64,000 nt of DNA from Acidobacteriota bacterium (GTDB lineage Bacteria > Acidobacteriota > Terriglobia > Acidiferrales > UBA7541): positions 1 through 64,000 of the forward strand of contig JABDFR010000003.1 of the NCBI GenBank assembly GCA_013286465.1, written 5' to 3'. This document shows positions 7,086 through 35,996 of this stretch, one piece after another; positions within the stretch are counted from its first letter, which is position 1; each line of letters starts with the position of its first letter. The notes under the pieces were generated by a model. That model saw only the letters and a list, made by a program, of their open reading frames with translations, was not told the DNA's origin and searched no databases. The position numbers and the translations under genes are program-made.

Positions 7086-7889
7086 TTAGCGAATTCGACT
7101 TACGCTTATACTTACTATGGCGCCTATCGTTAGCCACTTTGCGTTTTGCTTCATGCGATGCCAGACGTTGCCGCCTTTCGCGGTAGTTAGGGCCGCGTTG
7201 CGTTCCTGGACTAAGGACGCTGAGCGGATCTTTTCGTCTTCCAGATCGGCTTGGGATACGGACAGTTGCGCTTCGCATGATCGGCAATTCTGAATCCTGT
7301 CAAATAACGATTTTAGGTCCGCCGTCGGGATTGGGGTCGTATCAATGGCAGTCGAGTTCGGGGCTACGTCGGTAGGTGAGGTGGAATCGCCATTTTGACG
7401 CGGTGCGGGGCTGTCGGGGGAGTGAGATTTGCTGGCGAAAAGATCTGCGATGTCGGACTTCAATATTGAGATTGCTGGGCTGGCTACTTCGGACTGGGAG
7501 GAAAGAGACTTACGGCAATTAGTAGCTGTGGCATCGGGGAGTATCGCGGTTTCGGGCCGCAGACTTACCTTCTTGGGATTTGGTTGCTCGATACTCAGAG
7601 TTGCGCCTCGCGTGGTGGATTGCGGAAGGTCAGGAAATTGCTCTAGAGCATTTGCGATCTGCTGGGGTGTTTGCACGGTTTTACGCGTGGCGGCGATTTG
7701 GGATAGTGTGGCCTTCAGGTCCGCGTCTCGGGTCTGCTCTCGCAATTCCGCTGCGTTGATGATTTGTTGCTGGGTGGCGATGGATTTTTCGAGGCGTGCG
7801 CGGTCATTGCGGGATTCTCGCCAAGTGATCGCGGCGAAGGCTATCACGATGACAAAAATAATTGCGAAGGCAGTTTTTTCTAAAGTCAT
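7086..7889 (-). CDS. Phage membrane-anchored coiled-coil protein (possible inner-membrane spanin)
   Basis: 267 aa, last gene of the phage block. One N-terminal membrane helix (residues 5-24, TAFAIIFVIVIAFAAITW) is followed by a charged heptad-like region (about 25-75) and a long Ser/Thr/Pro-rich low-complexity stretch (80-190). A further coiled-coil segment lies at about 190-250, with the end at SVSRIR. A membrane anchor plus periplasmic coiled coil, close to a lytic transglycosylase, is the layout of Rz-type i-spanins. The length is well above typical spanins and I see no partner o-spanin. A structural or host-derived membrane protein remains possible. The codons for NCRSCEA give one Cys pair of unknown use. 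Confidence 0.45.
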   Translation of the reverse strand: MTLEKTAFAIIFVIVIAFAAITWRESRNDRARLEKSIATQQQIINAAELREQTRDADLKATLSQIAATRKTVQTPQQIANALEQFPDLPQSTTRGATLSIEQPNPKKVSLRPETAILPDATATNCRKSLSSQSEVASPAISILKSDIADLFASKSHSPDSPAPRQNGDSTSPTDVAPNSTAIDTTPIPTADLKSLFDRIQNCRSCEAQLSVSQADLEDEKIRSASLVQERNAALTTAKGGNVWHRMKQNAKWLTIGAIVSISVSRIR

Positions 7890-8156: not shown

Positions 8157-8612
8157 TTACCGCAGACCAATGTAGTTCGACCTTCTGGCCTCGACTTCAG
8201 CTGCGTAGTCGGAGTTCGCGCCACCGTTCCAGAATTGCAGAGCCTGATGTTCGTTCCCGCGAGCGATTTCTAATTTCTTGCTAAACAGGGCACAGCCGAC
8301 TTCAACACCAACCGTCGGGTCGCACAACTCGCTCAGGAACCGGCCCGTGAAGCCTGTCTCTCGAGCGGACTCTCCCATTACCTGCATAAGGCCCCAAGAG
8401 ATCGCGCGACTATAAGCTTCAGTATTTGTGGGTGGTTCGACCTTATTGTTGGTAAATAGCGGGGCTACGTACTTCGCAAAAAATCCGGGTTCGTAACGAA
8501 TAGCATAAGGATTCCATGCGGATTCTTGTTCAATGATAGCGCAGACGAGGGAGGGATCTAGCGAGTGGCGGCTGGCTATAGCTCGGGCAGTCGTAATTAG
8601 GGAGTTGTCCAT
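8157..8612 (-). CDS. Phage lytic transglycosylase (SLT-type endolysin)
   Basis: Compact 151-aa peptidoglycan-cleaving enzyme of the soluble lytic transglycosylase (goose-lysozyme-like) fold. It shows the catalytic Glu region CAIIEQESAWNPYAIR (E28 or its neighbour), the AISWGLMQVMGESARETG motif that lines the glycan cleft, and a terminal LQFWNGG segment equivalent to the AYNxG motif of the family. It has no signal peptide, so export would need a holin. Small membrane proteins at 8652-8903 and 7086-7889 on either side support a lysis cassette. It cleaves the MurNAc-GlcNAc bond non-hydrolytically if it behaves like relatives. About 267 bp between its 3' end and the next gene hold no recognisable gene. 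Confidence 0.85.
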   Translation of the reverse strand: MDNSLITTARAIASRHSLDPSLVCAIIEQESAWNPYAIRYEPGFFAKYVAPLFTNNKVEPPTNTEAYSRAISWGLMQVMGESARETGFTGRFLSELCDPTVGVEVGCALFSKKLEIARGNEHQALQFWNGGANSDYAAEVEARRSNYIGLR

Positions 8613-9739: not shown

Positions 9740-10144
9740 TCAGGATGAGCGGAGACGGATCGAATATGGAGTCCAAGCGTCATCACGGACCCAGCCCAAT
9801 TGGGTCAATCGGCGGCCGAAGCGACGTGCGATTTTTGGGGGAATCCACGCATGAGCGTCTTCGAGGCCCTTGCGGAGCAGGTCGCTCGCGGCAGCCGAGT
9901 GTAGCGAAATTAGATTCGTTAGGCGCTGTCTCGGAGTGTCGCGGTCGGGATCAGCGAGCAAATAAATTTCGCAGGTTACGCGAGCTAGTGCGCCCATGGT
10001 GATCTGGCCTTTCGTGTCTTCCTGGATAAGTTTTGACACGAAGAGCGGATTTTCCAAGTCAGGAAATTGATAGTCGAAGGATTGGCGCGCATGGATGTTT
10101 CTCAGAGCGTCGAGATCGGATAATGAGTATTCGCGGACGTTCAT
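9740..10144 (-). CDS. Phage-encoded GNAT-like N-acetyltransferase
   Basis: 134 aa. The opening MNVREYSLSDLDALRNIHAR is the usual first strand and helix of GNAT acetyltransferases, followed by a central β-rich part (GQITMGALARVTCEIYLL). The typical acetyl-CoA loop (R/QxxGxG/A) is not obvious. The C-terminal half instead carries a helical RRFGRRLTQLGWVRDD segment. This fits the small diverged GNAT-like proteins often found in phage late regions, where substrates are unknown. It is co-directional with the flanking virion genes. Confidence 0.55.
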   Translation of the reverse strand: MNVREYSLSDLDALRNIHARQSFDYQFPDLENPLFVSKLIQEDTKGQITMGALARVTCEIYLLADPDRDTPRQRLTNLISLHSAAASDLLRKGLEDAHAWIPPKIARRFGRRLTQLGWVRDDAWTPYSIRLRSS

Positions 10145-10241: not shown

Positions 10242-10577
10242 CTAGAAAACGTGGTGCCGCATGATCGGATGCAGTTTGGCAACGGATTCGGTGAGTTCAA
10301 AACTCGAGTCAAAGGGCGTGACTCCAAGTGGCGATAACGCGTTCGCGATCGCTTCCGGGATTATTTTCGGACTGAGAGGGTGCGGAAGCTCTTGCCAGGC
10401 CGGATTCTGCGACAACGAATTATGCGTGCCTTCGTCGGCTTCGACGAGCGCCAGTATTTTTATGTCGGGACTCGCCGCAGACCTCGGATCGGCGTGTAAG
10501 TAGTGCGAGGTGGTGAAATGAGCGGATTCGACTTGCCATGCTGAAAGAGTGGTCACGTAGTAGGTACGGCCTTGCAT
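10242..10577 (-). CDS. Hypothetical phage protein
   Basis: 111 aa from an ATG at 10577, chosen because AGGA lies 6 nt upstream; the longer frame begins at 10646. No family recognised. It begins with a β-like MQGRTYYVTTLSAWQ, contains a His-rich stretch (SAHFTTSHYLHAD) and the acidic DIKILALVEADEGTH, and ends HPIMRHHVF. No signal peptide or membrane helix. Its place between the Hint-domain protein and the GNAT-like gene suggests an accessory virion or assembly factor. Confidence 0.55.
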   Translation of the reverse strand: MQGRTYYVTTLSAWQVESAHFTTSHYLHADPRSAASPDIKILALVEADEGTHNSLSQNPAWQELPHPLSPKIIPEAIANALSPLGVTPFDSSFELTESVAKLHPIMRHHVF

Positions 10578-10767
10578 GTTGTTTCCTAGGGAATCTGGAA
10601 TCGTACTTTGTAGTTCGTCACGCTCGAACTGCACTGCATCGAGCATTGAGGCGGGCGAAGACTTAAGAATTCCGGCCGCGCGCGACGGGTTTTGGAGTGA
10701 AACAAATGGGGGCGCGATCAGACGGCAAAAGCGCCAGCGTAGCGTTCAGGACTCAACTGAAAAACGA

Positions 10768-11796
10768 CTAGGAATTAAACGTGTAGTTGTGAGTGAGGAT
10801 GCTTGCGCTATCTTTACCCGCGAAAAACTCGTGGATCGGGGCGCAACTTATGGTTACTTTCTTGCTTTCCTCGCGGACCACCTCGATTTTTTGCAGTGTC
10901 ACGTTAGCGTATCGCCCGACCAGAATGTCGGCTAAGCATAACCGCTCCGCGCGCATCGGCGAACCGTCCGCCAGCGTGAAAATGTGATGCGGCGTCACAT
11001 CCAAGGTTTCGTGATTCGAGAGATGGAGACGAATGAAAGTATCGGCGGGCAGGATTTCCAGTCGGACGATTCGGGTCCAGGCGCTCTTGCCTCGCGGGCC
11101 GACGCCACCGTTGCCCGGCGCTAGGATGTGGTCTCCTACCTTGCAAGCGTCGATCGGGACGGTTCCGCGATCTCGCTCGACAACCAGCATACCTTGGCGG
11201 ATGCAATTGCCGCTGCCGCCGCCCGATCCACCTCCTGATCCGCTCGTCGGAGTCGCAGCGATCATTGCGCCCTGCGATAGAGGAATTCGAGCTTGGAGCG
11301 ATTGTTGCTGAGCAGCAACGTTTGTTTTTGCTGCTTGAGCGTTGGCGGGAGAGCCGGAACCCCCACCTACCCAATTTAGCGCGGCGGCTGAATCATCCCA
11401 GTACGGATAGAAGAAATAACTGGTTCCGGGAGCTAGGCCAGTGATGGCCAGTGAACCGTTGGGGATTGCAGTACTAGTTCCATCAGCTCGATAAACAGCG
11501 AAACTTGACCATGACCATGTCACGCTCGTAGGTGTGGAAGAGTACGTGAACGAAGCATTCCAAGTCGGCGGGATGCTGCCTTTGGCTAATACCCCCGGCT
11601 TGGAAGGATCGATTGCATTTGACGTAAGAGCGTCTGAGGACACGCGGGCGAAGTCGGCACCGTCGGTTATTGCGGAGTCGAGTGACAACTTGTTTGTGGT
11701 GCCAATTGCATTGACGCCGGTGAGCAGGCGTTTTAGAGATTCGTAGAGATGAGATGACGTTGACTTCAAGGCTTCGATTTGGGGAATCGTAATCAT
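10768..11796 (-). CDS. Phage protein with fibronectin-like segment and C-terminal intein-like Hint domain
   Basis: 342 aa. Residues 1-60 are helical. About 63-150 look like a fibronectin III-type β-sandwich, with paired Trp and the LAPGTSYFFYPYW motif. A Gly/Ser linker runs from about 184 to 197. Residues 198-337 form a Hint (hedgehog/intein) module: initiating C198, the T-x-x-H block TPHH (268-271) and the terminal H336-N337, followed by only five residues (YTFNS). Inteins need Cys/Ser/Thr after the Asn. Here Tyr follows, which is the pattern of bacterial intein-like domains that cleave rather than splice. Self-cleavage or attachment of the N-terminal part to another molecule is therefore plausible, but not shown. 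It sits in the tail part of the late operon, so a virion surface protein is likely. Confidence 0.72.
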   Translation of the reverse strand: MITIPQIEALKSTSSHLYESLKRLLTGVNAIGTTNKLSLDSAITDGADFARVSSDALTSNAIDPSKPGVLAKGSIPPTWNASFTYSSTPTSVTWSWSSFAVYRADGTSTAIPNGSLAITGLAPGTSYFFYPYWDDSAAALNWVGGGSGSPANAQAAKTNVAAQQQSLQARIPLSQGAMIAATPTSGSGGGSGGGSGNCIRQGMLVVERDRGTVPIDACKVGDHILAPGNGGVGPRGKSAWTRIVRLEILPADTFIRLHLSNHETLDVTPHHIFTLADGSPMRAERLCLADILVGRYANVTLQKIEVVREESKKVTISCAPIHEFFAGKDSASILTHNYTFNS

Positions 11797-11971: not shown

Positions 11972-13789
11972 TCAATGGGACGGCGATGCCATTTTGACCT
12001 CGCCAATTACGGGACTCCGGAAAGAGGACCCAGAATCAGTTTCGATGAGAAGCAGGCATCTCTCCGAAATCGCGTACGCAGCAAATCGGTGTGTGCCAGC
12101 GGACTTTGCGAGTGCCACGGTCAGAGTCGAGCGACCCATCTCGTCGAAAGGAACCAGGCCTCCCTCTAGTACGTTTCCTTCGAGACCGACGGGTCCGCCT
12201 TGGACGGAAGAAAGCGAACCATCGATGATCGCGCCGCTGTCCGAGAGAGAGAATCTGCCGAGCTCATAGATTGCCGACTCGTTTGCAGCACGGAGTTGGA
12301 ACGCAAGCGCCTTGCCTGCGAGATCTGCAATCACCACCGGATCCATTTCATGCCTTGTGATTTCACCTTCGAGAATCCATTTTCCAGACTGCCCAGAAAT
12401 CTTGCCTGCGACCGCGGGGAATCTCCCGCTGGATACGGGAGAGGTTCCTGGACCAGATCCGGTGACTTCGCGGGAATTCCCGAACGATGCGGTAAACGTT
12501 ATCCGAATCGGCGGATTCGCGGAAAGTGCGTTTTCTATTCTTAAGTCTACGTCGTCTGTTCCGTCTTGAGCTTTTCGCGATTCGTAATTCCCTGCGACCG
12601 AGGCTCCCGATTCCAAAGCGCTCCCATCGCTCGATTTCAGGTCGATTTCCCCTGCGGTGATCTTCCCGGCACCATCGGAGCGTAGGCTTCCGACCGCTGC
12701 GATTGCATTACCGCCATCGTCGTGACCGCGAACAATAAACGTATAGTTTCCTTGGAACGCAGCGGGCGGCGCAATCGTGAAAGTAAAGGAATCGCTCTTA
12801 GTGGGATCAGCCACGGAGGTTGCCGTGATCATCGGCGTATTATTGGGAGACTGCGGGGCGGTGTTCGGCGGCGTATAGATTACGCTTAGCGGTTGTTGCG
12901 CGCTTAATGCCCCTGCTTGTGCCGTTGGTTCCAGCGACCAGCTCACTCCTTGGCCGGCGACATCGTTGTTGACGACGGCATTAATCGTCACGCCGGCGCT
13001 GCCCGCATTGATCTGTGCAAATGGATTCGAAATCGAAACGCTTATAGGCTGTGCCGAGGCCTGAATGCGGATGTCATCGAAATCGGAAACCGTCGTGGTC
13101 GTAACGGAAGTGGCAGTGATAGTCGGCGTGTTGTTAGGGGCGGCCGGCAGCGTCGCCGGTGGCGTATAAATCACGCTAAATGGTTGCGCAGAGCTGAGCG
13201 CGCCGCACGCAGGGCTGCAGGCGGCGCCTTGCGCCATCAGCGCCCAAGTTACGCCGGCGTTCGCAGTGTCGAATAGAACCTGCGCATTCAGCGTAACAGG
13301 TTCGGCGTCTGGCGCAATATTGGTGATCTTATTAGTGATATGGACGACGACTTGGGGTGCGCCGATCGTAAATGTGTCCGTGAGCGTGACAGAGGAGTTG
13401 GCATCAGCTGTCGCAGTTAAAATCAAACTATTGGGTGTTGGTGGCAAAAGCGGAGCCGCAAAGTTCACCGTGGTCGTGGACGTGAAGGTATCAGGTCCGT
13501 TAGCGGTCACAGTGTTCGATTGGCCGCTAAGAGTTCCGCACGCTGTAGTGCAGGGGGTGGTCGTGTCTCCGTTACTTGGCTCGTTAAGCGCCAAGGTGAA
13601 ATTAACGCCGCGATTTAGCGTGTCATTTTGGGTTGTGACCGAAAAAACAAAATTCGTGCCGCCGGGTACGGTTACAGGGGTACTCGTGAAAGCAATGGAT
13701 AGTGGTCCGACACTGTTGCCGCCGCCTCCACAGCCACAAAGTAAGATTAGAACCGCACCGGCAAAAAACAGCGCCGAAAACCGCCGCAT
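11972..13789 (-). CDS. Surface lipoprotein with Ig-like repeats (phage-region cargo)
   Basis: 605 aa from the ATG at 13789, which follows a GGGGGG ribosome site and begins a proper lipoprotein signal: MRRFSALFFAGAVLILLCGC with the acylated Cys at position 20, then a Gly-rich linker. Three related bacterial Ig-like segments follow, each ending near a VIYTPP…P.NNTP.ITATSV motif (around residues 160-220, 230-320). The C-terminal half begins with FQGNYTFIVRGHDDGGNAIAAVGSL and is built of β-strands containing IDGSL/LEGG motifs. Such proteins are common as exported acidobacterial lipoproteins of unknown role. Being in the late operon between the Hint-domain gene and the large tail gene, it could be a lysogenic-conversion protein altering the host surface. 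Confidence 0.75.
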   Translation of the reverse strand: MRRFSALFFAGAVLILLCGCGGGGNSVGPLSIAFTSTPVTVPGGTNFVFSVTTQNDTLNRGVNFTLALNEPSNGDTTTPCTTACGTLSGQSNTVTANGPDTFTSTTTVNFAAPLLPPTPNSLILTATADANSSVTLTDTFTIGAPQVVVHITNKITNIAPDAEPVTLNAQVLFDTANAGVTWALMAQGAACSPACGALSSAQPFSVIYTPPATLPAAPNNTPTITATSVTTTTVSDFDDIRIQASAQPISVSISNPFAQINAGSAGVTINAVVNNDVAGQGVSWSLEPTAQAGALSAQQPLSVIYTPPNTAPQSPNNTPMITATSVADPTKSDSFTFTIAPPAAFQGNYTFIVRGHDDGGNAIAAVGSLRSDGAGKITAGEIDLKSSDGSALESGASVAGNYESRKAQDGTDDVDLRIENALSANPPIRITFTASFGNSREVTGSGPGTSPVSSGRFPAVAGKISGQSGKWILEGEITRHEMDPVVIADLAGKALAFQLRAANESAIYELGRFSLSDSGAIIDGSLSSVQGGPVGLEGNVLEGGLVPFDEMGRSTLTVALAKSAGTHRFAAYAISERCLLLIETDSGSSFRSPVIGEVKMASPSH

Positions 13790-13891
13790 CAAACCCCCTG
13801 AAAGAAAATAGGCACAGCAGTGTATAGAAGCGAGCCGCACCCCGCAAGTTGGACGGGAATAAGAGCGATGAGGTTGCTTCGATCTGGAGCT

Positions 13892-16273
13892 CTAATTGTG
13901 GCCGCGAACGACGGACCACGGGTCCGGTTTCGCCCACGCCGTAAACTTTGTCACTGAGAACCAGTTCGTAGCGCTGCTCGTGCTCAACTGATAGGCAATG
14001 CGCTCGCCGAGAATGCTCGCGAAGATTTCCATGTCCTCGGTGGCGGGTGACGCCAACGGCCAAGTTCCTATTGACTGCGCGACATTTCCAGGCAGCAGCG
14101 CCGTAAGCTGCAGAGTGCCGCTGCCCTGCGCATTTGCCGTTGCATAACCCACCAAATTACGCCCGCTTAACGGCATGCGACTCAAGAACGCCGTTGTGTA
14201 GTAGGAATTTATGGTAGCGCCGTCGTCAGAAAACAATCCGGGCGTTAAGCCCAAAACCTTGCCCGATGAGGAATTGTTGCCAAAGAAAATCTGATCGGTA
14301 CCATTCGCGCGCTCGATCAAATTGCAGGAATTTGCCGCGATATTCCATTGCGTCCATTTCCGGCCGTGTCCAGGCGAAGTGAGCATCGTGGCTAGCGGAT
14401 CGGTGAATCCCTCGGTGTAGTCAAGGACTAGCACCTGTGATGGTTGCGTCGCAGCGCCCAAGGGAACTCCTACGAGAAGCCGCTTATGTTCTGTGTCGAC
14501 TTGCACCCAGATTCGCGATCCAAACTGCCAGTTAATCGTGTCCCACGTGGGTTGAATTTCCTGTGAGAGCTTGATCGGGTTCCCGCCGTCGAACAGGTAG
14601 AGCCCCGCGCGGCCCGCGATCACCGCCCACTCCTCGCCGATTCCTACACCGTGTACAGACGGCGTCCCAACTTTATTAGAAACTTCCTCCACCGACCAGA
14701 GATCCGGCTCGTTTACTCCGTCGTCGGTGGTGACAAACAGGCTTCGCTCTTTTACCAAGTAGAGATAGTTGCGCAACCTGAATGCGGCTCGAATTCCCTG
14801 CCCGTTGTTTTCCGCCACCTCCATAAGCCCAGTGACACCGTCGTAGCTTTCGGCATTTAACGCTCGCGATCCGCGGATGATAGAGGCGTTCTGTGGTTGC
14901 AGCGTGGGAAATACTTCAATGTTATCGACAAGAAAAGACTCGCCGGTGGGCGAGGGCACACCATCGGCATAAACCCGCAAAACCATGTCGTTTGGAATCG
15001 AAGTTTGCGGCGGAATTAGTTGCGAAATATATTCGACATATCCAGTGGTTGCTTGTAACGCTGTAACTGCGAGCCCCGTGCCAATCGTACCTGCGGTCGG
15101 GCTGAAGCAGTTGATGCGCAAAGTTCCTTGATTGAGATTACCGCTTCGCTTGACTCGTGCACGCACGGAGTAATCGACATTTTGCACGAGGAGCGGATCG
15201 CCGGCCGGGTCTTTCACGGCTGCTTGCGCGATCATCCCCCTAGCGACTGTGTGTCCGTCGCCTGTGATGCGGTAGGCGTCGCCCCAGACGACATCACTCG
15301 ACTCCTGGCTAGCTCCCGCGCCCGACGTCGGATCACGTGTCCAACCCAGCGGACGGCCGTTACCGGTCGAATCCCAACCACCGTCGAAAGTTATGTTTGT
15401 CCAGTTGTCCATCTTCGCGCGCTCGCCCCACCAAAAAAGGCGCTCCGAATAATCGATCACTCCCAGCTGATCTGGAAGTTCGATTTGCGCGAAAAGGTAG
15501 TCCATGCTCACGCCTGATAGCAGAATCGTATCGTCGAAATCAACCGTGAGCGTGGTCGTGCTGTTATCGTTGATGGTCATCGTTGCCGGCACTTGGAAGA
15601 AATCGGCGCCACCTGCACCAGTAAAGCAAAGCAGTCGTTGCACTATATTCGCTGGGCCCGTTGGGATGTTTGTCAGTGTTACCTGTTTTCCGCCCGCAGC
15701 CGTCCAACTTATGGGTGGCGATGGCGCCGTCCAGAACCCTTGCCGTGTTACAAAGACGACGCTGACCTGATGCACACCCGCCGAGATGTTCCCGGCTGCT
15801 GCGGCGTCGGCGGCAGTCGGCCCTTCGCCTGGCCCAACTTGGCTCACGCGATCAAAAAAAATGTCATCGAATTGGCGCGGAAGATCCTGGCCCAGTAGCG
15901 AATCGCTAAAGGCCATATATTCCCGGCCGAAGAGGGTTGTCGAGGCAAGATACTGGTTCGGCGTTCCACCCGCCGCCACAAGTCCGAGAGTTCCTGGAGT
16001 TGTTTCCTTATACAGATTTCCAAGCGAGTCGAAGACGAGCAGCCTGTCGACAAGATTGGCCGTGATGTAAGTCCTCAAGCCGTTCACGCCAACCGCGCCG
16101 CTGAGCGCCGCAAACTGCGACGCGAGTCCAGCGCGCGTGCGAACGCCTCCAGGAAAAAATTCGACGTCCGCGAGACTAGGCGACATCCCAGGCGGAACAT
16201 CGGAGGGATCCAGTAGCGTAATCCAGCCGCCGAACGTATCAAGCGGAATGGGGGCGAAGGTTTCAATAGACAT
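13892..16273 (-). CDS. Large phage tail/head-completion structural protein
   Basis: 793 aa, β-rich throughout, with no signal peptide. The start MSIETFAPIPLDTFGG is followed by DPSDVPPGMSPSLADVEF and FFPGGVRTRAGL. This arrangement resembles the large podovirus-type structural proteins that build the tail tube or hub. Later parts (about 340-470) look like a jelly-roll module, with many Thr/Gly-rich strands and the ERLFWWGERAKMDNWTN segment. It lies between the connector-like protein and the Hint-domain protein in the minus-strand late operon. Exact role within the virion cannot be fixed from sequence alone. The ribosome site is weak. Confidence 0.6.
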   Translation of the reverse strand: MSIETFAPIPLDTFGGWITLLDPSDVPPGMSPSLADVEFFPGGVRTRAGLASQFAALSGAVGVNGLRTYITANLVDRLLVFDSLGNLYKETTPGTLGLVAAGGTPNQYLASTTLFGREYMAFSDSLLGQDLPRQFDDIFFDRVSQVGPGEGPTAADAAAAGNISAGVHQVSVVFVTRQGFWTAPSPPISWTAAGGKQVTLTNIPTGPANIVQRLLCFTGAGGADFFQVPATMTINDNSTTTLTVDFDDTILLSGVSMDYLFAQIELPDQLGVIDYSERLFWWGERAKMDNWTNITFDGGWDSTGNGRPLGWTRDPTSGAGASQESSDVVWGDAYRITGDGHTVARGMIAQAAVKDPAGDPLLVQNVDYSVRARVKRSGNLNQGTLRINCFSPTAGTIGTGLAVTALQATTGYVEYISQLIPPQTSIPNDMVLRVYADGVPSPTGESFLVDNIEVFPTLQPQNASIIRGSRALNAESYDGVTGLMEVAENNGQGIRAAFRLRNYLYLVKERSLFVTTDDGVNEPDLWSVEEVSNKVGTPSVHGVGIGEEWAVIAGRAGLYLFDGGNPIKLSQEIQPTWDTINWQFGSRIWVQVDTEHKRLLVGVPLGAATQPSQVLVLDYTEGFTDPLATMLTSPGHGRKWTQWNIAANSCNLIERANGTDQIFFGNNSSSGKVLGLTPGLFSDDGATINSYYTTAFLSRMPLSGRNLVGYATANAQGSGTLQLTALLPGNVAQSIGTWPLASPATEDMEIFASILGERIAYQLSTSSATNWFSVTKFTAWAKPDPWSVVRGHN

Positions 16274-16633
16274 AGATTTGGTTTTCGTCGGCGATTGGTT
16301 GCGAACGCGTGTTTGGACCCCTCCGCGCGTCCGACAGTTCGTCCGCCAAGAGATTTGGCAATTAAATACAGATTAGTTGATCATCGAAAAGTGCTCGCGT
16401 GCCGCCATCGCGACTATTGTTTGTCGCGCCAAAACTTTCCGTTCGACAGGGGCTTGGAAATAACTTGGAATTCAGAATCCGAGACGAACTCCGCTCAGGA
16501 CATCGCGAACGCGGGCGGCTATGCTATCATCACACGCTTACGTTTCGTCGCTGCACGCAACCTGTATGCCAATTTGCGAATCGAAAAGCTTGGGATTCGG
16601 ATCGTTAACTCCGTTAAGAGACGAGGGCTCCGA
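16274..16633. other. Divergent intergenic region
   Basis: 360 bp between the minus-strand tail gene and the plus-strand NHL gene. It must hold the promoter of the NHL gene and possibly one for the downstream half of the late operon. I see no strong hairpin, direct repeat or consensus -35/-10 pair. Confidence 0.4.
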
Positions 16634-18709
16634 ATGCGGCAATTTTTCTTGGGCTGCGCGCTGATTGTGTTATGCGCGTTGCCGTTCCGGTTAAAGCGCG
16701 TAGAGGCCGGCGCAGGAATCGACGAGGCCTCAAGTAAAGTTCGGACCGTAGCCCGCGGCGTAGCCACCGGCGGCATAGCTACGGATTTCGCCGATAGAAT
16801 CTATTTCTCCGCCAACAATCGAGTTTATCGAATTTCGCCTGACTTGCGCATTGGTGCCAATGGTCGGGCGATATCAAGCGACGGGCTTGACGCTATTGCT
16901 GGTTCCGGCGAGCGTGGATCGCTGGGTGATGGTGGACCGGCGATTTTGGCGCAACTTGACTTGTCGACCGCGGGTGCTTCAACTCCGGCCTCTGCGAAAG
17001 GAAATCTCGCCAGCGACATCTCCGGGAATCTTTTTCTTGCAGACACTCTAAATGACACTGTTCGTCGCATTGACGCGGACTCGCAGTTGATTTCCAGCGT
17101 CGCTGGACGTTGGGGTTCTGGGAACTTGTCCGCAACATCCTCCGAACAAATTTTACGTCCGGCAGCGGTGGCCGTGGATGTCTCGGGGAACGTCTATATC
17201 GTTGGCAACGACCAACTATGGCGACTGGATCCATCGGGCTCACTGTCGCAACTCGCCAATGTAGTTGATCCAGTGGCATTTGCGGTCTCGCGCGACGGAG
17301 ATTCTATTGCCGTCGCGACCCGAGGCGGTGAAATGTTTGTCGTATTTGAGCGTTCGACGCCGGGCCACTATCAAGCGGCATTTACCTGGCCCGCCACTAA
17401 TCAAGAAACCCTCGGCGACGAACTTGCCGTCGGCCAAGCCGATAACCAAGGCGAACCGGCTTCTCGTGCGAGCAGATACTCAGGGCTGGCATTCGACGCC
17501 TCCGGCAAGATTTTCGCCGCTAAAGGAAATGGAAATATTATCGAGCGGTTTGATTTCAAGGCGCCTGCTCACGCGACGATTGCCGGCAACGGACGCGCCG
17601 GGTACTCCGGTGACGAAGGTGCGCCGTTGGAGGCAGAGTTTAATGCCCCTGGCGCACTCGCAATTGATCGCGATGGCAATCTATTAATAGCCGACACCGG
17701 CAATCTTGCCATTCGCGAGATCACCCATGCCGCCGCAGTCGCTGGAGTCACGCTCACTCCCAACACCTTTACGTTTTCGAATGAGCCAACGGGAGGCTCC
17801 AGCGCGCCGGAAGTCTTTACGCTAGCGAACAATTCGTCGGTGCAAGTCACCGGTATCGCCATCGATTTCACCGGCACGGCAACGCCGCCGGATTTCACGC
17901 AGACGAGCACCTGCGCCACCACGCTCGACGCCGGATCGAGTTGCACGATTAGCGTCGTATTTTCGCCGCAGGCAACAGGCAATCGCTCCGCGGCCTTGCA
18001 TGTCGCGGACAGTGACCCCACGAGTCCTCAAACCGCGGCACTTTCTGGGTTTGCGGATGACTACGAGCTGGCGCTGCAATCCGGAAACACAGACACTTTG
18101 ACCATAGTCCAGGGCGGTACGGCTAACTACAATCTGGCGGTGGTCCCAGACAACTCGTTCTCCGGTACTGTTACGGTCCAATGTCCTGTGGGATTACCGC
18201 TCGACGTATCCTGCGGATTAGCCACTGGAACGGCATCCGGCTCGTCCGGCGGGGCTAGTGGTTCGAGTGGGTCAACCACTCTGGCGCTAACAGTTGCACC
18301 AGGAGCGCCACAGAATTTCACGTTGGCGTTGTCGACGATGGCGAAAAATCAGGACACGCTATCGCCACGAGTGTTACGACGGCCAAGATCCTCAGGTCCG
18401 GAACTCGGACTCGCAATTCTGGGAACCGTGGCTGCGCTATTCAGTGCCTTGCGAGTTCGCAATCGGCGAAGTCGATCCCGTTGGCGGCCAATCGCGATGT
18501 CCTCTTTGCGATTTCGGGCGCTAGGGCTGGTAGTGGCGATCACCACTCTAATTTTTGCCGCCACGGGGTGCGGAGGTAGCGGCACACCAACATTGATCCA
18601 GAAACCAAATCCTGGCACACCGGCAGGAACATATCACTTCAATGTCATCGGCGCTTCACAGGGAGCGTCGCGCGCGTTCACGATTACACTAATCGTCCAG
18701 AGCCCGTAG
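16634..18709 (+). CDS. Exported NHL-repeat/choice-of-anchor-D protein inserted in the phage block
   Basis: 691 aa from the ATG at 16634, which opens a signal peptide (MRQFFLGCALIVLCALPF); the open frame upstream of it is non-coding-like. Residues about 40-370 contain NHL/β-propeller repeats, such as DISGNLFLADTLNDTVRRID, VDVSGNVYIVGNDQLWRLD and IDRDGNLLIADTGNLAIREI. A choice-of-anchor D β-sandwich follows (FTFSNEPTGGSSAPEVFTLANNSS to TAALSGFA). The end carries two hydrophobic segments separated by a basic RNRRSRSRWR stretch and a final PAGTYHFNVIG…TITLIVQSP strand motif. It is plus-strand and convergent with the head-tail connector gene. It is probably host-derived cargo with a cell-surface or extracellular role; the ligand is unknown. 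Confidence 0.75.
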   Translation: MRQFFLGCALIVLCALPFRLKRVEAGAGIDEASSKVRTVARGVATGGIATDFADRIYFSANNRVYRISPDLRIGANGRAISSDGLDAIAGSGERGSLGDGGPAILAQLDLSTAGASTPASAKGNLASDISGNLFLADTLNDTVRRIDADSQLISSVAGRWGSGNLSATSSEQILRPAAVAVDVSGNVYIVGNDQLWRLDPSGSLSQLANVVDPVAFAVSRDGDSIAVATRGGEMFVVFERSTPGHYQAAFTWPATNQETLGDELAVGQADNQGEPASRASRYSGLAFDASGKIFAAKGNGNIIERFDFKAPAHATIAGNGRAGYSGDEGAPLEAEFNAPGALAIDRDGNLLIADTGNLAIREITHAAAVAGVTLTPNTFTFSNEPTGGSSAPEVFTLANNSSVQVTGIAIDFTGTATPPDFTQTSTCATTLDAGSSCTISVVFSPQATGNRSAALHVADSDPTSPQTAALSGFADDYELALQSGNTDTLTIVQGGTANYNLAVVPDNSFSGTVTVQCPVGLPLDVSCGLATGTASGSSGGASGSSGSTTLALTVAPGAPQNFTLALSTMAKNQDTLSPRVLRRPRSSGPELGLAILGTVAALFSALRVRNRRSRSRWRPIAMSSLRFRALGLVVAITTLIFAATGCGGSGTPTLIQKPNPGTPAGTYHFNVIGASQGASRAFTITLIVQSP

Positions 18710-18755: not shown

Positions 18756-19457
18756 CTAGAGATAGATTACTCGGCGGTGGAAACTATATGGCTTCCGCCT
18801 CCGTGCTTTGAATTGCTCAGGACGAATGTAACGCTCAATTAGCTTTTCGGTTGCCTCCATCGCAGTCGTTTGCATGTCGGCGGCCAGAGCGCGCGCGCCT
18901 CGTGCTCTGGCCGCCACCGCCGCCGTGGCGTACGCGAGTGCGTCGTTCGATGCGCGAATCAGTATTGGATCCGTGCCGAGAACCAATTGCGGCAGAACTT
19001 TCTCATAACGCAGACGTACCGTGACCTCGGAAGTCGCGCCGAGCAGCTGAATTGTGTCCTCCCGCCACTCCCACATCCGAAGGAACGAACCCGGCTGAAG
19101 ATTTGGCAGACCGCTCACGATCTTTTCCATCGGAACAAACAAATCGCTCGACCCTGACTGGTGCTCCCATAGTTGATGCGGCACCATCAGATCGGTCGGC
19201 AGTTGAGGCGTGGAAGTGTCTGTCAGCTCCGTGGCAGTAAGGCCGCTCGTCAGCGGAAGATCAAGATCAACTTGTGAGACTAAGACTGAAACGCCAGCTT
19301 CGGCGAGTTCGCGTTGCAGCGCGCGATAGGCCGAATTCAACAGCGGCATCAGCGTCCCGTCGTTGAACACGGAGCCGGCGGCATCGTTGATCAGTGCGCG
19401 CGTAAGATTCAACGCCGTCTCGGTCTGGTCGTACGCAGTAGTGGATAGTACCGGCAT
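18756..19457 (-). CDS. Phage head-tail connector/adaptor-like protein
   Basis: 233 aa from the ATG at 19457, chosen because GAGGGAAACC precedes it; 16 extra residues are possible from 19505. The body is helical with a central β part. LNLTRALINDAAGSVFNDGTLMPLLNSAYRALQ resembles the N-terminal helices of phage DUF-type connector proteins that probe a DNA end or portal ring, and QLPTDLMVPHQLWE and WEWREDTIQLLGATSEVTVRLRYE follow. The C-terminal helix (ALAYATAAVAARARGARALAADM) and a basic tail end the protein. It lies upstream of the large tail gene in the late operon, the usual connector position once the NHL insertion is ignored. Confidence 0.6.
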   Translation of the reverse strand: MPVLSTTAYDQTETALNLTRALINDAAGSVFNDGTLMPLLNSAYRALQRELAEAGVSVLVSQVDLDLPLTSGLTATELTDTSTPQLPTDLMVPHQLWEHQSGSSDLFVPMEKIVSGLPNLQPGSFLRMWEWREDTIQLLGATSEVTVRLRYEKVLPQLVLGTDPILIRASNDALAYATAAVAARARGARALAADMQTTAMEATEKLIERYIRPEQFKARRRKPYSFHRRVIYL

Positions 19458-19581
19458 GGTTTCCCTCGTAAATCGCGATGTGAGTCGCCCTGCGAGCGCC
19501 AGCAATCGAGCCGATTATCGTCACCGGCTCAACCAAATGCTTAATTCGCTTCATTCTTGCCGAGCCGCCGACACGCCACTG

Positions 19582-25206: not shown

Positions 25207-26472
25207 TTAATAGCCGCTAGGAATCGCCAGCGTGTCGATGAACGCTCCGCTTCTCGGACTCTCGTTCCAGACCTGCAGTCCGGTAACGAAGTAAAAGATG
25301 TATGCAGCCGCAAGCCCTCCGCTAGTCCCATAGATCGGGAAAACCGTCTGGCCGCCGACATCGTAGAAGTCGATGTCCTGCATCACCGCCCGGCCCCAGT
25401 GCGACAGATCCAGGAAGTCCACGCGCGTCGAGTTAGCGTTGATCGAAGACTTGATTGGAACGCCAGCCATCGTCTTCTCGCCCGTAAAGAGCAGATCGAC
25501 ATCGCTAGCGCGCCCTCCCGCTCCTTCCTTGATGATTTGCGAGATCGTGACGCCCAGTTGCTCCCAAGCATGCTCTTGCTCGAGCGACGTATACGCGATG
25601 AGCTTCCCAACTTGGCTAGTACCCAAAGCTTTGCGCACCTTGTTGATAGCCAGGCGTACAACTCCCGGCGTGAGTGCCGAGTTATTCCCTGCGACGCGTG
25701 GCGTCGCAAGTTCAACCGGATAAGTGGCGCGGTTAAGATTGAGCCAAGTCCCGGTCGTGGCGTTAGTCTGGTGGTAAAGAATCACAAAGAGTGAAACCGG
25801 CTGCGCTCCGGTCAAGCCGTCGTGTACGATAACGTCGTTTGCGGATGTACCACTAGGAACGTTGTCTACCGTAATCGTCCCCGCAAATGGGTCTACCGCG
25901 GTCACACTCGTGGTAACTCCAGCTGCCACATTGCGGTTGGTAGTAAGCGTCGGATCGTAGACCTGGATTGTCTGGTTGTAGTAAACGAGCACGCTGCCCG
26001 GGGGCTTCGCCATCGTAAAGGTGCTCCCAGAAATGCTCGCAATCGTACCTAAAACCCCATTTCCGTTCGTCTGCATTACCTTATCGAGGAACGCACGGAA
26101 CTGCTGCATGTTGTTCTTCACTTCGCGTTTGGCGGCGTTCTCAATCGCCTTCTCCGGCGAGTTCGACGCGTACTCCACCAACTTCGATATTTCCACCGCG
26201 TGGCGGAAAAAGATGGGCGTCACTTGCGCTACGTCATAAGTCGTTCCCGACCCACGACCCAGATCTCCACCATCGAGGTTGGCCAGGCCCGGCTTGCCTC
26301 CCGGACGGATTTGCAGCGGGAGGCGCATGTTGCGCGAGCTTACGCGCTCCGCATCGCCACGCTGCTGAATCATCGTCAGCAGTATGTCGTCGCGCTCATA
26401 AAGCAGCGGCAACTTGTCGCGGACCTTTTCGAGTTGGAGCGCAACTGTCTGTGCATTTTGCATTTGTGCCAT
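25207..26472 (-). CDS. Major capsid protein (HK97-fold)
   Basis: 421 aa. The N-terminal arm contains the helical LEKVRDKLPLLYERDDILLTMIQQR. This is followed by the GGKPGLANLDGGDLGRGSGTTYDV region, a Ser/Thr β insertion (about 150-240) and a C-terminal axial domain beginning near VRLAINKVRKALGTSQVGKLIAYTSLEQEHAWEQLGV and ending in GTSGGLAAAYIFYFVTGLQVWNESPRSGAFIDTLAIPSGY. Position after the scaffold-like gene and before the small head protein is that of phage capsid genes. There is no protease upstream, so processing is uncertain; scaffold-type assembly is likely. GGGGAG lies upstream of the ATG. The family assignment is by layout and overall character. Confidence 0.75.
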   Translation of the reverse strand: MAQMQNAQTVALQLEKVRDKLPLLYERDDILLTMIQQRGDAERVSSRNMRLPLQIRPGGKPGLANLDGGDLGRGSGTTYDVAQVTPIFFRHAVEISKLVEYASNSPEKAIENAAKREVKNNMQQFRAFLDKVMQTNGNGVLGTIASISGSTFTMAKPPGSVLVYYNQTIQVYDPTLTTNRNVAAGVTTSVTAVDPFAGTITVDNVPSGTSANDVIVHDGLTGAQPVSLFVILYHQTNATTGTWLNLNRATYPVELATPRVAGNNSALTPGVVRLAINKVRKALGTSQVGKLIAYTSLEQEHAWEQLGVTISQIIKEGAGGRASDVDLLFTGEKTMAGVPIKSSINANSTRVDFLDLSHWGRAVMQDIDFYDVGGQTVFPIYGTSGGLAAAYIFYFVTGLQVWNESPRSGAFIDTLAIPSGY

Positions 26473-33989: not shown

Positions 33990-35528
33990 CTAGCGCTGTC
34001 GACGAGCAAAATGGATCGGCGAACTGTGATCATGCTCAGCCAGTTGCGCCTTGCGCGCCTGAATCGCCCGTATCGTCGGATCGCCCGACGTAACTCGTGC
34101 CGCCAATCGCTGCTCGTAAGGCGCATCGCCAGCTGCCACGCGCGAGTGCCGAGACTTCAGCCCATATCGCGCAGCGTCAGCCGAATCGTCGCCGTCGATC
34201 TTCGCAATGTCCTCCACCCGCACATTGTCGCGCACCAAATTCGGCAACGTACGAATGAGTTCAACGCAATTCGACGTGATCAGCCACTCCTCGGCTTCCA
34301 GCATTTGATACATCAGCATCCAGCCGCCCACCCGATCGTTATCGGCTGGCACCGGACGCGGCAGTCCAAACGCCACGAACATGTTCCCGATCTGGTCGGC
34401 AATCGTCTCGTGATCCGTGTGCCGCGCGAACGCGTCAGGCGAAAGATAAACCGCCGAAATCTTTTCATCGACGCTGTGATCCAGAATCGCCGCCGCCAGC
34501 TCACGCGGTGACATATGCTGCCCCGTAAATTCTCGGTAGGTAACCGTCCGGCAAGCTGCGGCCCCTATCCCCAGCTCGCCGCCCGCCGATTCGCCGACAC
34601 GAGGCGCCGCCGTATGCCAATAAACCGCCGCTGGATGCTCAAATCCCCAGTCAATCGAAATCCATCTGGCCCACCAAGGCTCGAACTGAATCTCCTCAGG
34701 ACGACTCACGTGGAGTGCAGTATTGAAATTATCGAAATACTGCCCAGCGAAAACCGTCCAATCGCCCTCGAGAAATGCGCGCCGCAGATTTTCCGGCAAG
34801 GCGTCCAACGATTTCAGATAGTTCACGTCCGCCGCATAAATCGGATTGTCGCAAAGCCGCGCGGGGATGAAATCATAATCGCCGGGATCGTATTTGCCCG
34901 GCGAATCCATCCCCGCCGCCGCTTGCTTATCAATCCACAGCGATTTCACCCACGCATGCCCAATGTTTCCAGGATTTGTCGCACCGGCCATGTTGGGGCG
35001 AGCGCCCGATACAGGACAACGATTCCGCGAAGTAAGAAACTGCCACTGCGCCAGCGTAAACATCGTCAGTTCGTCGATGCCGATAAAGAGATACTCGGCA
35101 CCCTGATACTGATAAATATCGCTCTCCGACCGGCTATATCCAAACTGCGTCGTAGATTCATTGAACCAGGTGACGACGTGCTTCGAGTCGTTATAGCTGC
35201 GATAGAGTTCGCGAGGAATGTCGCGCCGAAAATACTGCAGCAGCGATGCTTCCAACTCAGGAAAGGTCCGCCGCAGCAGCAACGTGTTCACACCCGGATG
35301 CTCGTTGGCCCGGACAATTGCCTCCATCATCAAGGCCTTGGATTTACCAGGCCCCGCGGCCCCGCCGAACAATCGGTATTTCGCGCCCGAATAGTGAAAC
35401 CGCTGCTGCTTCGGAAATGGGTAGTAACAAAGTTTCCGCTGCCAAATCCGCGCACTGCCATCAAGGAGTTTCGGCGCCGCCGAATCTTCTATGAACTTCT
35501 CGACGCCTGTTTTTGTCGTAATGGGCAT
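33990..35528 (-). CDS. Phage terminase large subunit
   Basis: 512 aa from the ATG at 35528 (MPITTKTGVEKF). The 81 residues upstream in the longer frame are Cys/Trp-rich and look non-coding. ATPase: FGGAAGPGKSKALMMEAI is a Walker A-like motif and EYLFIGIDELTMFT a Walker B motif with the catalytic Glu. QFGYSRSESDIYQYQG and TNPGNIGHAWVKSL fall where coupling and sensor motifs occur. The C-terminal nuclease part has Asp residues in WISIDWGFEHPAAVYW and in KIDGDDSADAARYGLKS, compatible with an RNase H-like nuclease. It packages genomic DNA into the procapsid via the portal. A neighbouring small-subunit candidate lies upstream at 35997-36335. Confidence 0.88.
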   Translation of the reverse strand: MPITTKTGVEKFIEDSAAPKLLDGSARIWQRKLCYYPFPKQQRFHYSGAKYRLFGGAAGPGKSKALMMEAIVRANEHPGVNTLLLRRTFPELEASLLQYFRRDIPRELYRSYNDSKHVVTWFNESTTQFGYSRSESDIYQYQGAEYLFIGIDELTMFTLAQWQFLTSRNRCPVSGARPNMAGATNPGNIGHAWVKSLWIDKQAAAGMDSPGKYDPGDYDFIPARLCDNPIYAADVNYLKSLDALPENLRRAFLEGDWTVFAGQYFDNFNTALHVSRPEEIQFEPWWARWISIDWGFEHPAAVYWHTAAPRVGESAGGELGIGAAACRTVTYREFTGQHMSPRELAAAILDHSVDEKISAVYLSPDAFARHTDHETIADQIGNMFVAFGLPRPVPADNDRVGGWMLMYQMLEAEEWLITSNCVELIRTLPNLVRDNVRVEDIAKIDGDDSADAARYGLKSRHSRVAAGDAPYEQRLAARVTSGDPTIRAIQARKAQLAEHDHSSPIHFARRQR

Positions 35529-35602
35529 TTTGGGCGTGGCGCCTGTGCACACTGCAGGCGCCCAGCATCGACGCCGCAAAACATCGAGGCAACCATCGGG
35601 TT

Positions 35603-35767
35603 TTACGCCCCTGTGCGAATTCGCTTGCCCACGTAAAGCGCAGCAGATCCTGCAAGCAAGCATGCTGCAATCGCAGCATGGTGCACACTCAGCACCGCCC
35701 CAACAAGCACGCACCCAGCCCCGCCAATCTGAACCGAATAACCAACAGTAGATTTGTTGATAGACAT
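35603..35767 (-). CDS. Small membrane protein (holin-like)
   Basis: 54 aa from the ATG at 35767, 5 nt after GAGGTG. One or two hydrophobic spans (VQIGGAGCVLVGAVLSVHHAAIAACLLAGSAALYV) with a basic end (GKRIRTGA). It is the third small membrane protein of the phage block and sits upstream of TerL, which is an odd place for a holin. Function unassigned. Confidence 0.55.
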   Translation of the reverse strand: MSINKSTVGYSVQIGGAGCVLVGAVLSVHHAAIAACLLAGSAALYVGKRIRTGA

Positions 35768-35996
35768 GCACACCTCGACCAAAATGGATTTGAAATAATC
35801 AGACAATCCCATCAAGAAAGCTTTGTCGTGATTTCCATCGTGCAGGAATCCGCGCAGAACCTCGGCACCCTACCCGTTGCGGCAAAATCCCCGACGCCGT
35901 CATTCCGAATCCCTTTTCGGCGTCAGGGATCCGCATTTTACTTTTGCCGTGGAACGGGCGTCCGCAAAACATCGGCCGCAAAACCACATCACATCC

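Follow-up and report, generated by a model that had tools for sequence, protein, structure and literature searches.

A virion protein of an Acidobacterial prophage ends in a predicted A-type BIL-like Hint domain that may remove itself

The window analysed here, a stretch of 64,000 nucleotides, carries a prophage of a soil Acidobacterium flanked by host genes (NAD synthetase-like and thioredoxin/DsbA-like, both as judged by eye, and Lgt). Our subject, hereafter the Hint gene, sits in the minus-strand structural module of this prophage, which contains the following features:

33990-35771, minus strand: terminase large subunit of the structural module
25207-26472, minus strand: major head protein-like gene of the structural module
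18756..19505, minus strand: SU10-type adaptor protein, which marks a podophage-type head-tail module (PF24175, E=7e-6; syntenic in the viral contigs L001-L006)
16295-18709, plus strand: NHL/ASH-type beta-propeller gene, on the opposite strand inside the module
13892..16273, minus strand: 793-aa virion structural protein (phrog_3287, E=6.7e-6; 63-69% identical and syntenic in L001-L006)
11972-13840, minus strand: 622-aa lipoprotein-like gene with a CGGGGN lipobox-like start and Ig-like repeats (by eye), lying between the 793-aa virion gene and the Hint gene
10768..11796, minus strand: whole Hint gene, 342 aa, comprising an N-terminal helical segment, an FN3-like beta domain, a Gly/Ser linker, the Hint domain and a pentapeptide (from the sequence, AlphaFold2 (AF2) and the homologs L001-L006 and L020-L031)
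10242..10646, minus strand: 134-aa protein directly downstream of the Hint gene, present in 5 of the 6 viral relatives
9740..10144, minus strand: 134-aa conserved protein, from the comparison of viral relatives
8157..8612, minus strand: SLT-type lytic transglycosylase at the end of the structural/lysis module (PF01464, E=8e-15; syntenic in L001-L006)
7086-7889, minus strand: Rz-like spanin of the prophage module

Four small genes separate the Hint gene from the lytic transglycosylase, and the order from adaptor to spanin is largely kept in the six viral relatives, where the 793-aa virion gene is the direct upstream neighbour of the Hint gene. We found no similarity to the 622-aa lipoprotein-like gene in these six contigs, in which its two flanking genes adjoin; it is likely an inserted cargo gene. 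A counterpart of the beta-propeller, 28-33% identical, occupies the same place in L001-L006 and is also encoded on the opposite strand. An earlier sequence-only reading of this DNA had assigned the Hint domain to a phage virion protein, and the virion genes on either side bear this out; the phage family of which the module is part is one of Terriglobia and has an adaptor of podophage type (SU10-type).

The Hint gene opens with ATG and runs without an internal stop, and its product divides into four parts:

11257..11796, minus strand: residues 1-180, short helices and then an FN3-like beta-sandwich (strands at about 78-142 in AF2) with a YFFYPYWDD signature
11206..11256, minus strand: residues 181-197, Gly/Ser-rich linker ending GSGGGSGGGSGN, which reaches the predicted N-terminal scissile bond N197-C198 (sequence; median pairwise dN/dS 0.054)
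10786..11205, minus strand: residues 198-337, predicted Hint domain with Cys1 = C198, block B T268-P-H-H271, block F His322 and block G H336-N337 (AF2 with Foldseek, profile, invariant columns)
10771..10785, minus strand: residues 338-342, YTFNS, a short C-terminal peptide past the predicted scissile bond N337-Y338 (Y338, F340 and S342 invariant in the family)

The motif set (C198, T268-P269-H270-H271, H336-N337 and Y338-T-F-N-S342) lies downstream of SGSGGGSGGGSGN, after the Gly/Ser linker and at exactly the positions that the sequence-only reading had given, and the +1 residue after N337 is Tyr338 rather than Cys, Ser or Thr. Nearly all relatives have a Gly-rich tract ahead of Cys1. The FN3-like domain is modelled with block pLDDT mostly of 63-91 over residues 81-160, and is 38-52% identical to its counterpart in L059, L062 and L074, which are proteins with PF13550 and PF23666.

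Taken as a single sequence, the window protein matches the Pfam Hint family PF01079 weakly (E=0.044, 13.8 bits against a cut-off of 29.7) and lies under the curated cut-off for each of PF01079, PF13403, PF07591 and PF14623, so that routine annotation would miss the domain. Scans of PHROGs and NCBIfam with the window protein gave no match, a direct sequence search of the PDB with it returned chance matches alone, and the sole outcome of tblastn against 50,697 phage records was a weak similarity to an intein that lies in the ribonucleotide reductase of a Caulobacter phage. Its relatives reach PF01079 at 4e-5 and 9e-5, and L068 exceeds the curated cut-off for Hint_2 (29.5 against 28.4), while L062 matches PT-HINT over nearly the full profile (2-136 of 137, E=4e-4); at the level of sequence, the matches of L062 and L068 independently anchor the Hint assignment. 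The L062 similarity would also suit a PT-HINT of a polymorphic toxin that releases a C-terminal toxin, but the genes around the window Hint are virion genes, and the five residues that follow it (4-19 in relatives) leave no toxin payload. This candidate was rejected because no toxin domain lies past the Hint, and we regard it as extremely improbable.

The sequence-only reading had suggested profile searches and structure prediction as checks on its proposal. The first gave a divided answer, with the single protein below the Pfam Hint cut-off and a Hint-only profile finding as its best PDB sequence match the solved BIL domain 2LWY, an A-type BIL of C. thermocellum (E=1.5e-4, with the alignment extending to the terminal HN). 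Structure prediction returned the Hint fold in a confident Hint-only AF2 model (pLDDT 87.9, pTM 0.82). In Foldseek this model again matched 2LWY best (E=6.8e-10, TM 0.80/0.86, rmsd 2.4 A), followed by Tetrahymena BIL2, the gp41-1 intein, DnaB inteins and Hedgehog; even the poor full-length model (pLDDT 59.5) gave listed matches that were all Hint domains, with 2LWY first. Structural matches in BFVD include three phage proteins, A0A6J5MFV5, A0A6J5NYB8 and A0A6J7WKC1, known here by their auto-annotated names alone as Fibronectin type III or Hint domain containing. The Hint fold is thus settled as far as prediction allows, and by all sequence and fold features tested the domain is a predicted member of the Hint/BIL kind.

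Homologs over most or all of the length were found in the six viral contigs and in 14 Acidobacteria/Terriglobia MAG loci (L019-L032). In the family alignment, whose members are approximately 61-68% identical to the window protein, Cys1, TPHH, HN, Tyr+1, Phe+3 and Ser+5 are invariant in 19/19 Hint domains, and close relatives from Acidobacteria prophages and viral contigs share the tail pattern Y-T/N-F-x-S. The block F His is absent from one close relative, L003. Median pairwise dN/dS is about 0.13 over the Hint part, about 0.06 around TPHH and about 0.05 in the linker, values that are rough since synonymous sites are near saturation and that, as codon-based estimates, place the Hint part under purifying selection. 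A profile of the FN3-like domain was present in 18 of 399 genomes of the class, including the window's own, 17 of them in one family, and the same-family loci that were fetched with the ORF intact to its end also finish in HNY(T/N)FSS; a phylum-wide genome search with the Hint profile matched no genome beyond the window's own. In the nearest relative, from the same genus and 72% identical (L019, 1729-2772, and L086), the reading frame is broken by a stop within the Hint, immediately past HHIFTLADG, owing either to prophage decay or to an error of assembly.

The same C-terminal layout recurs on other phage tail proteins. Siphophage tail-tip proteins of the J/Rcc01698 type close with the same cassette: an FN3-like domain (YYFYPYWD signature), a Gly-rich linker and a Hint whose HN is followed by 4-6 residues. 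The long examples are L017, L035, L036, L057, L059, L062 and L074, which carry PF13550 (Phage-tail_3) and mostly have PF23666 (Rcc01698_C) or J-like PHROGs as well. Compared along its full length, the window Hint shares 36% identity with the L062 domain, and its identity with the L059 domain is 31%. A more divergent Hint-like set, which we call group B, forms the C-terminus of DUF4815/VrlC-type proteins and of Ig-like fibre proteins, including those of Xanthomonas and Stenotrophomonas phages, and some of its members adjoin tail-fibre genes in Xanthomonas phages. In group B block B reads SxxT or similar in place of TxxH, with Cys1 and HN invariant. As hhalign gave no sensible full alignment between the window's group and group B (38% probability over 54 columns, in the wrong register), sequence makes no case for their common descent, and we place group B with the inteins through its layout and its own profile matches to gp41-1 and other inteins (best E=0.0014). 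In all, a Hint-like domain at the C-terminus, preceded by a Gly-rich linker, is found in no fewer than three divergent sets of tail or fibre proteins from phages.

Several further observations concern these sets. Divergent Hint-like C-termini, with Cys1 and HN retained and SxxT or similar standing for TxxH, were seen on DUF4815/VrlC-type and fibre-like phage proteins in L037, L038, L039 and L041-L052; several phage records have two Hint-like places each, and in L051 two neighbouring genes are of that type. Genes beside the Hint genes in L037 and L038 end in S74-like C-termini, as judged by eye. A Terriglobia-class genome (L096, 2 contigs) encodes a 1194-aa protein with a Hint of a third group, C, which has SPCE in block B, an IHNYPILPC end and Tyr at +1.

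Such a distribution bears on whether the window domain is a degenerate intein that was trapped in a tail gene and persists as a selfish remnant. Phage genes commonly contain inteins, the BFVD matches include terminases and a ribonucleotide reductase, and the group B profile resembles the gp41-1 intein. Against this, the domain is under purifying selection at a constant C-terminal position behind a Gly linker, it has neither an endonuclease nor a +1 nucleophile, and the same cassette stands on unrelated tail proteins, which together make a remnant very improbable. The window domain does share fold and motif order with class 1 inteins (gp41-1, Npu DnaB and others), from which it differs in having no +1 nucleophile, no C-extein domain and no homing endonuclease; we rejected a class 1 intein because Tyr338 stands at +1 and because the domain does not lie between two extein domains, YTFNS alone following the Hint.

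Instead, the domain resembles type A BILs. These have a terminal HN with no +1 nucleophile and mainly cleave, according to the review PMC4031507 (the type is also defined in PMC7765530), and here we find the Hint fold, Cys1 with the block B TxxH, a C-terminal His-Asn, and no Cys, Ser or Thr at +1. The kinship is drawn from 2LWY being the best match by both sequence and fold, similar also in its terminal HN. Unlike the C. thermocellum BIL, the window Hint stands at the very end of a phage virion protein, behind a Gly/Ser linker and with a tail of five residues. The proposal of a C-terminal BIL-type Hint domain is upheld by the invariant motifs in 19/19 domains, the 2LWY profile match and the confident AF2 model, as is its observation of a non-nucleophile after HN, since Tyr338 is invariant in the family. 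With Tyr at +1, standard intein splicing is not expected. The Magnetospirillum magnetotacticum BIL, which we liken to the window domain by description, also has Tyr at +1 and, in the same review, did not splice until the Tyr was changed to Cys.

A wider survey points the same way. In 43 distinct C-terminal Hint domains, gathered by a pattern that itself imposes a Gly-preceded Cys1 and a near-terminal HN, there are always 4-19 residues past the HN, so that a scissile bond is present in every one; Cys1 and HN are also invariant in alignments made without the pattern (A4, A6 and A7). Outside the window's family the +1 residue is Cys, Ser or Thr in 2/23 domains, not above the 12% that these residues make up in the tails. 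This pattern of +1 residue and tail fits Asn-cyclisation cleavage without canonical splicing, which is the type A BIL definition.

Considering these data together, we think it somewhat more probable than otherwise that the window protein is a virion component of the tail-tip or fibre type whose A-type BIL-like Hint acts as an autoproteolytic, self-removing C-terminal maturation domain. What was computed is the Hint fold, the full motif set (Cys1, TxxH, HN), purifying selection and the recurrence of this C-terminal architecture among phage tail proteins. After folding, C198 would attack the N197-C198 bond in an N-S acyl shift aided by T268 and H271, leaving a thioester on the Gly/Ser linker, and N337 would cyclise with the aid of H336, cutting N337-Y338. 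As the Tyr at +1 would be unable to accept the acyl group, the thioester would mostly be hydrolysed, the Hint would depart, and the mature virion protein would terminate in a flexible Gly-rich tract. The Hint would in this way serve as a self-removing C-terminal folding or assembly domain, like the self-cleaving Peptidase_S74-type chaperones of tail fibres in its place at the C-terminus of tail proteins and in its proposed logic; as those differ in fold and chemistry and are not homologous, the analogy is functional only. The benefit to the virion is the weakest inferred step of this explanation.

Relatives that lack the Hint speak to the outcome. L064, L065, L066 and L067 have a long Gly tract followed by 3-4 basic or hydrophobic residues (KFV, RLYL, GRFA and GRLV; L056 is on the same contig as L066), a terminal peptide that may have a function of its own, and other Hint-less relatives, L007-L009, carry fibre-type repeats in the C-terminal slot. 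Judged from these sequences, the Hint occupies an exchangeable C-terminal slot of tail proteins. Hint-less relatives end much like the expected cleavage product, which suggests that a Hint-free form is a viable tail protein, and it is from the exchangeable slot together with this Gly-ended natural state that we infer self-removal to be the likeliest course, with ligation of the tail to the linker as its main rival.

In that ligation the Tyr338 amine freed by Asn cyclisation would attack the linker thioester, giving a mature ...GGGSGGGSGN-YTFNS end and making the Hint a spacer between the linker and a functional C-terminal peptide. Such a route, in which the freed amine attacks the thioester, is described for type A BILs in the review PMC4031507. 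Within the family the Y-T/N-F-x-S tail is well conserved, as a peptide to be discarded need not be; this counts for ligation and against self-removal, and the direct joining of poly-Gly to a short peptide in the Hint-less relatives is the layout that ligation would give. However, Hint and Hint-less relatives do not share their terminal peptides, which also vary from one Hint group to another, and the Magnetospirillum BIL with its Tyr at +1 failed to splice in the account cited above; we consider ligation unlikely.

Also counting against self-removal are the absence of the block F His in L003 and the loss of TxxH in divergent relatives. TxxH is wholly or partly lost with Cys1 and HN kept in group B (SxxT), group C (SPCE), L033 (TKTQ) and L062 (VPIH), and in groups B and C, and partly in L062 and L033, the N-terminal chemistry may thus be weak or otherwise assisted. 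These losses, and the replacement of other C-terminal modules by the Hint, would suit an inert fold kept as a tip or multimerisation domain without chemistry. Yet the window's family strictly keeps Cys1, TPHH, HN and a tail beyond the Asn, and a purely structural domain is not expected to keep a nucleophile, a cyclising Asn and a bond past the Asn, so that we hold an inert fold to be rather improbable.

A further alternative is acyl transfer of the Hedgehog kind, in which the linker thioester would be attacked by a nucleophile on the host surface or on a second virion subunit, so that the tail protein becomes covalently fixed. Cys1, TxxH and a flexible Gly linker are all in place for this, and the Hint stands where the fibre-type tip stands in L007-L009. 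Similar to Hedgehog/Hog and Vint domains, the window domain has the Hint fold (1at0, TM 0.76/0.78), Cys1 and TxxH, and profile similarity to Vint was seen in relatives of the window protein. Hog domains, however, use the first acyl shift only and need no HN, while in this set HN ranks with the features that vary least and is kept throughout; moreover, the Hint is the very C-terminus, and no acceptor or lipid-binding extension was seen. Membership of Hedgehog/Hog was rejected because HN is present and the sterol-recognition extension is absent, five residues alone lying past the HN, and transfer to another molecule seems to us quite improbable.

The sequence-only reading had called Hint domains in phage structural operons uncommon. 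Their occurrence in at least three divergent tail or fibre protein sets calls for a qualification of that statement, although we found no description of a C-terminal Hint on phage tail-tip or fibre proteins in the open-access literature searched, outside which most subscription papers lie. The passages on phage inteins found there deal with inteins of terminases, of a helicase, of a Mu gpF head protein and of other such genes. More broadly, it is possible, if doubtful, that unrelated phages (podophage-type Terriglobia prophages, J/Rcc01698-type siphophages, and phages with DUF4815-type and jumbo-phage fibre proteins) use Hint C-terminal caps whose conserved C1/HN chemistry processes the tail tip or joins the linker to another molecule, be it a peptide, a subunit that partners it or one on the host surface, making covalent self-processing a means of tail maturation or adhesion. 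Related Hint ends on the tail proteins of many unrelated phages suggest a little-noticed form of self-processing in building or arming tails. If active, Hint chemistry would join the ways in which phages mature their tail proteins and would account for a C-terminal domain in several phage groups that scans with Pfam and PHROGs have largely missed, and nature would here supply short, self-cleaving, C-terminal Hint domains preceded by Gly linkers, which could be useful in protein ligation.
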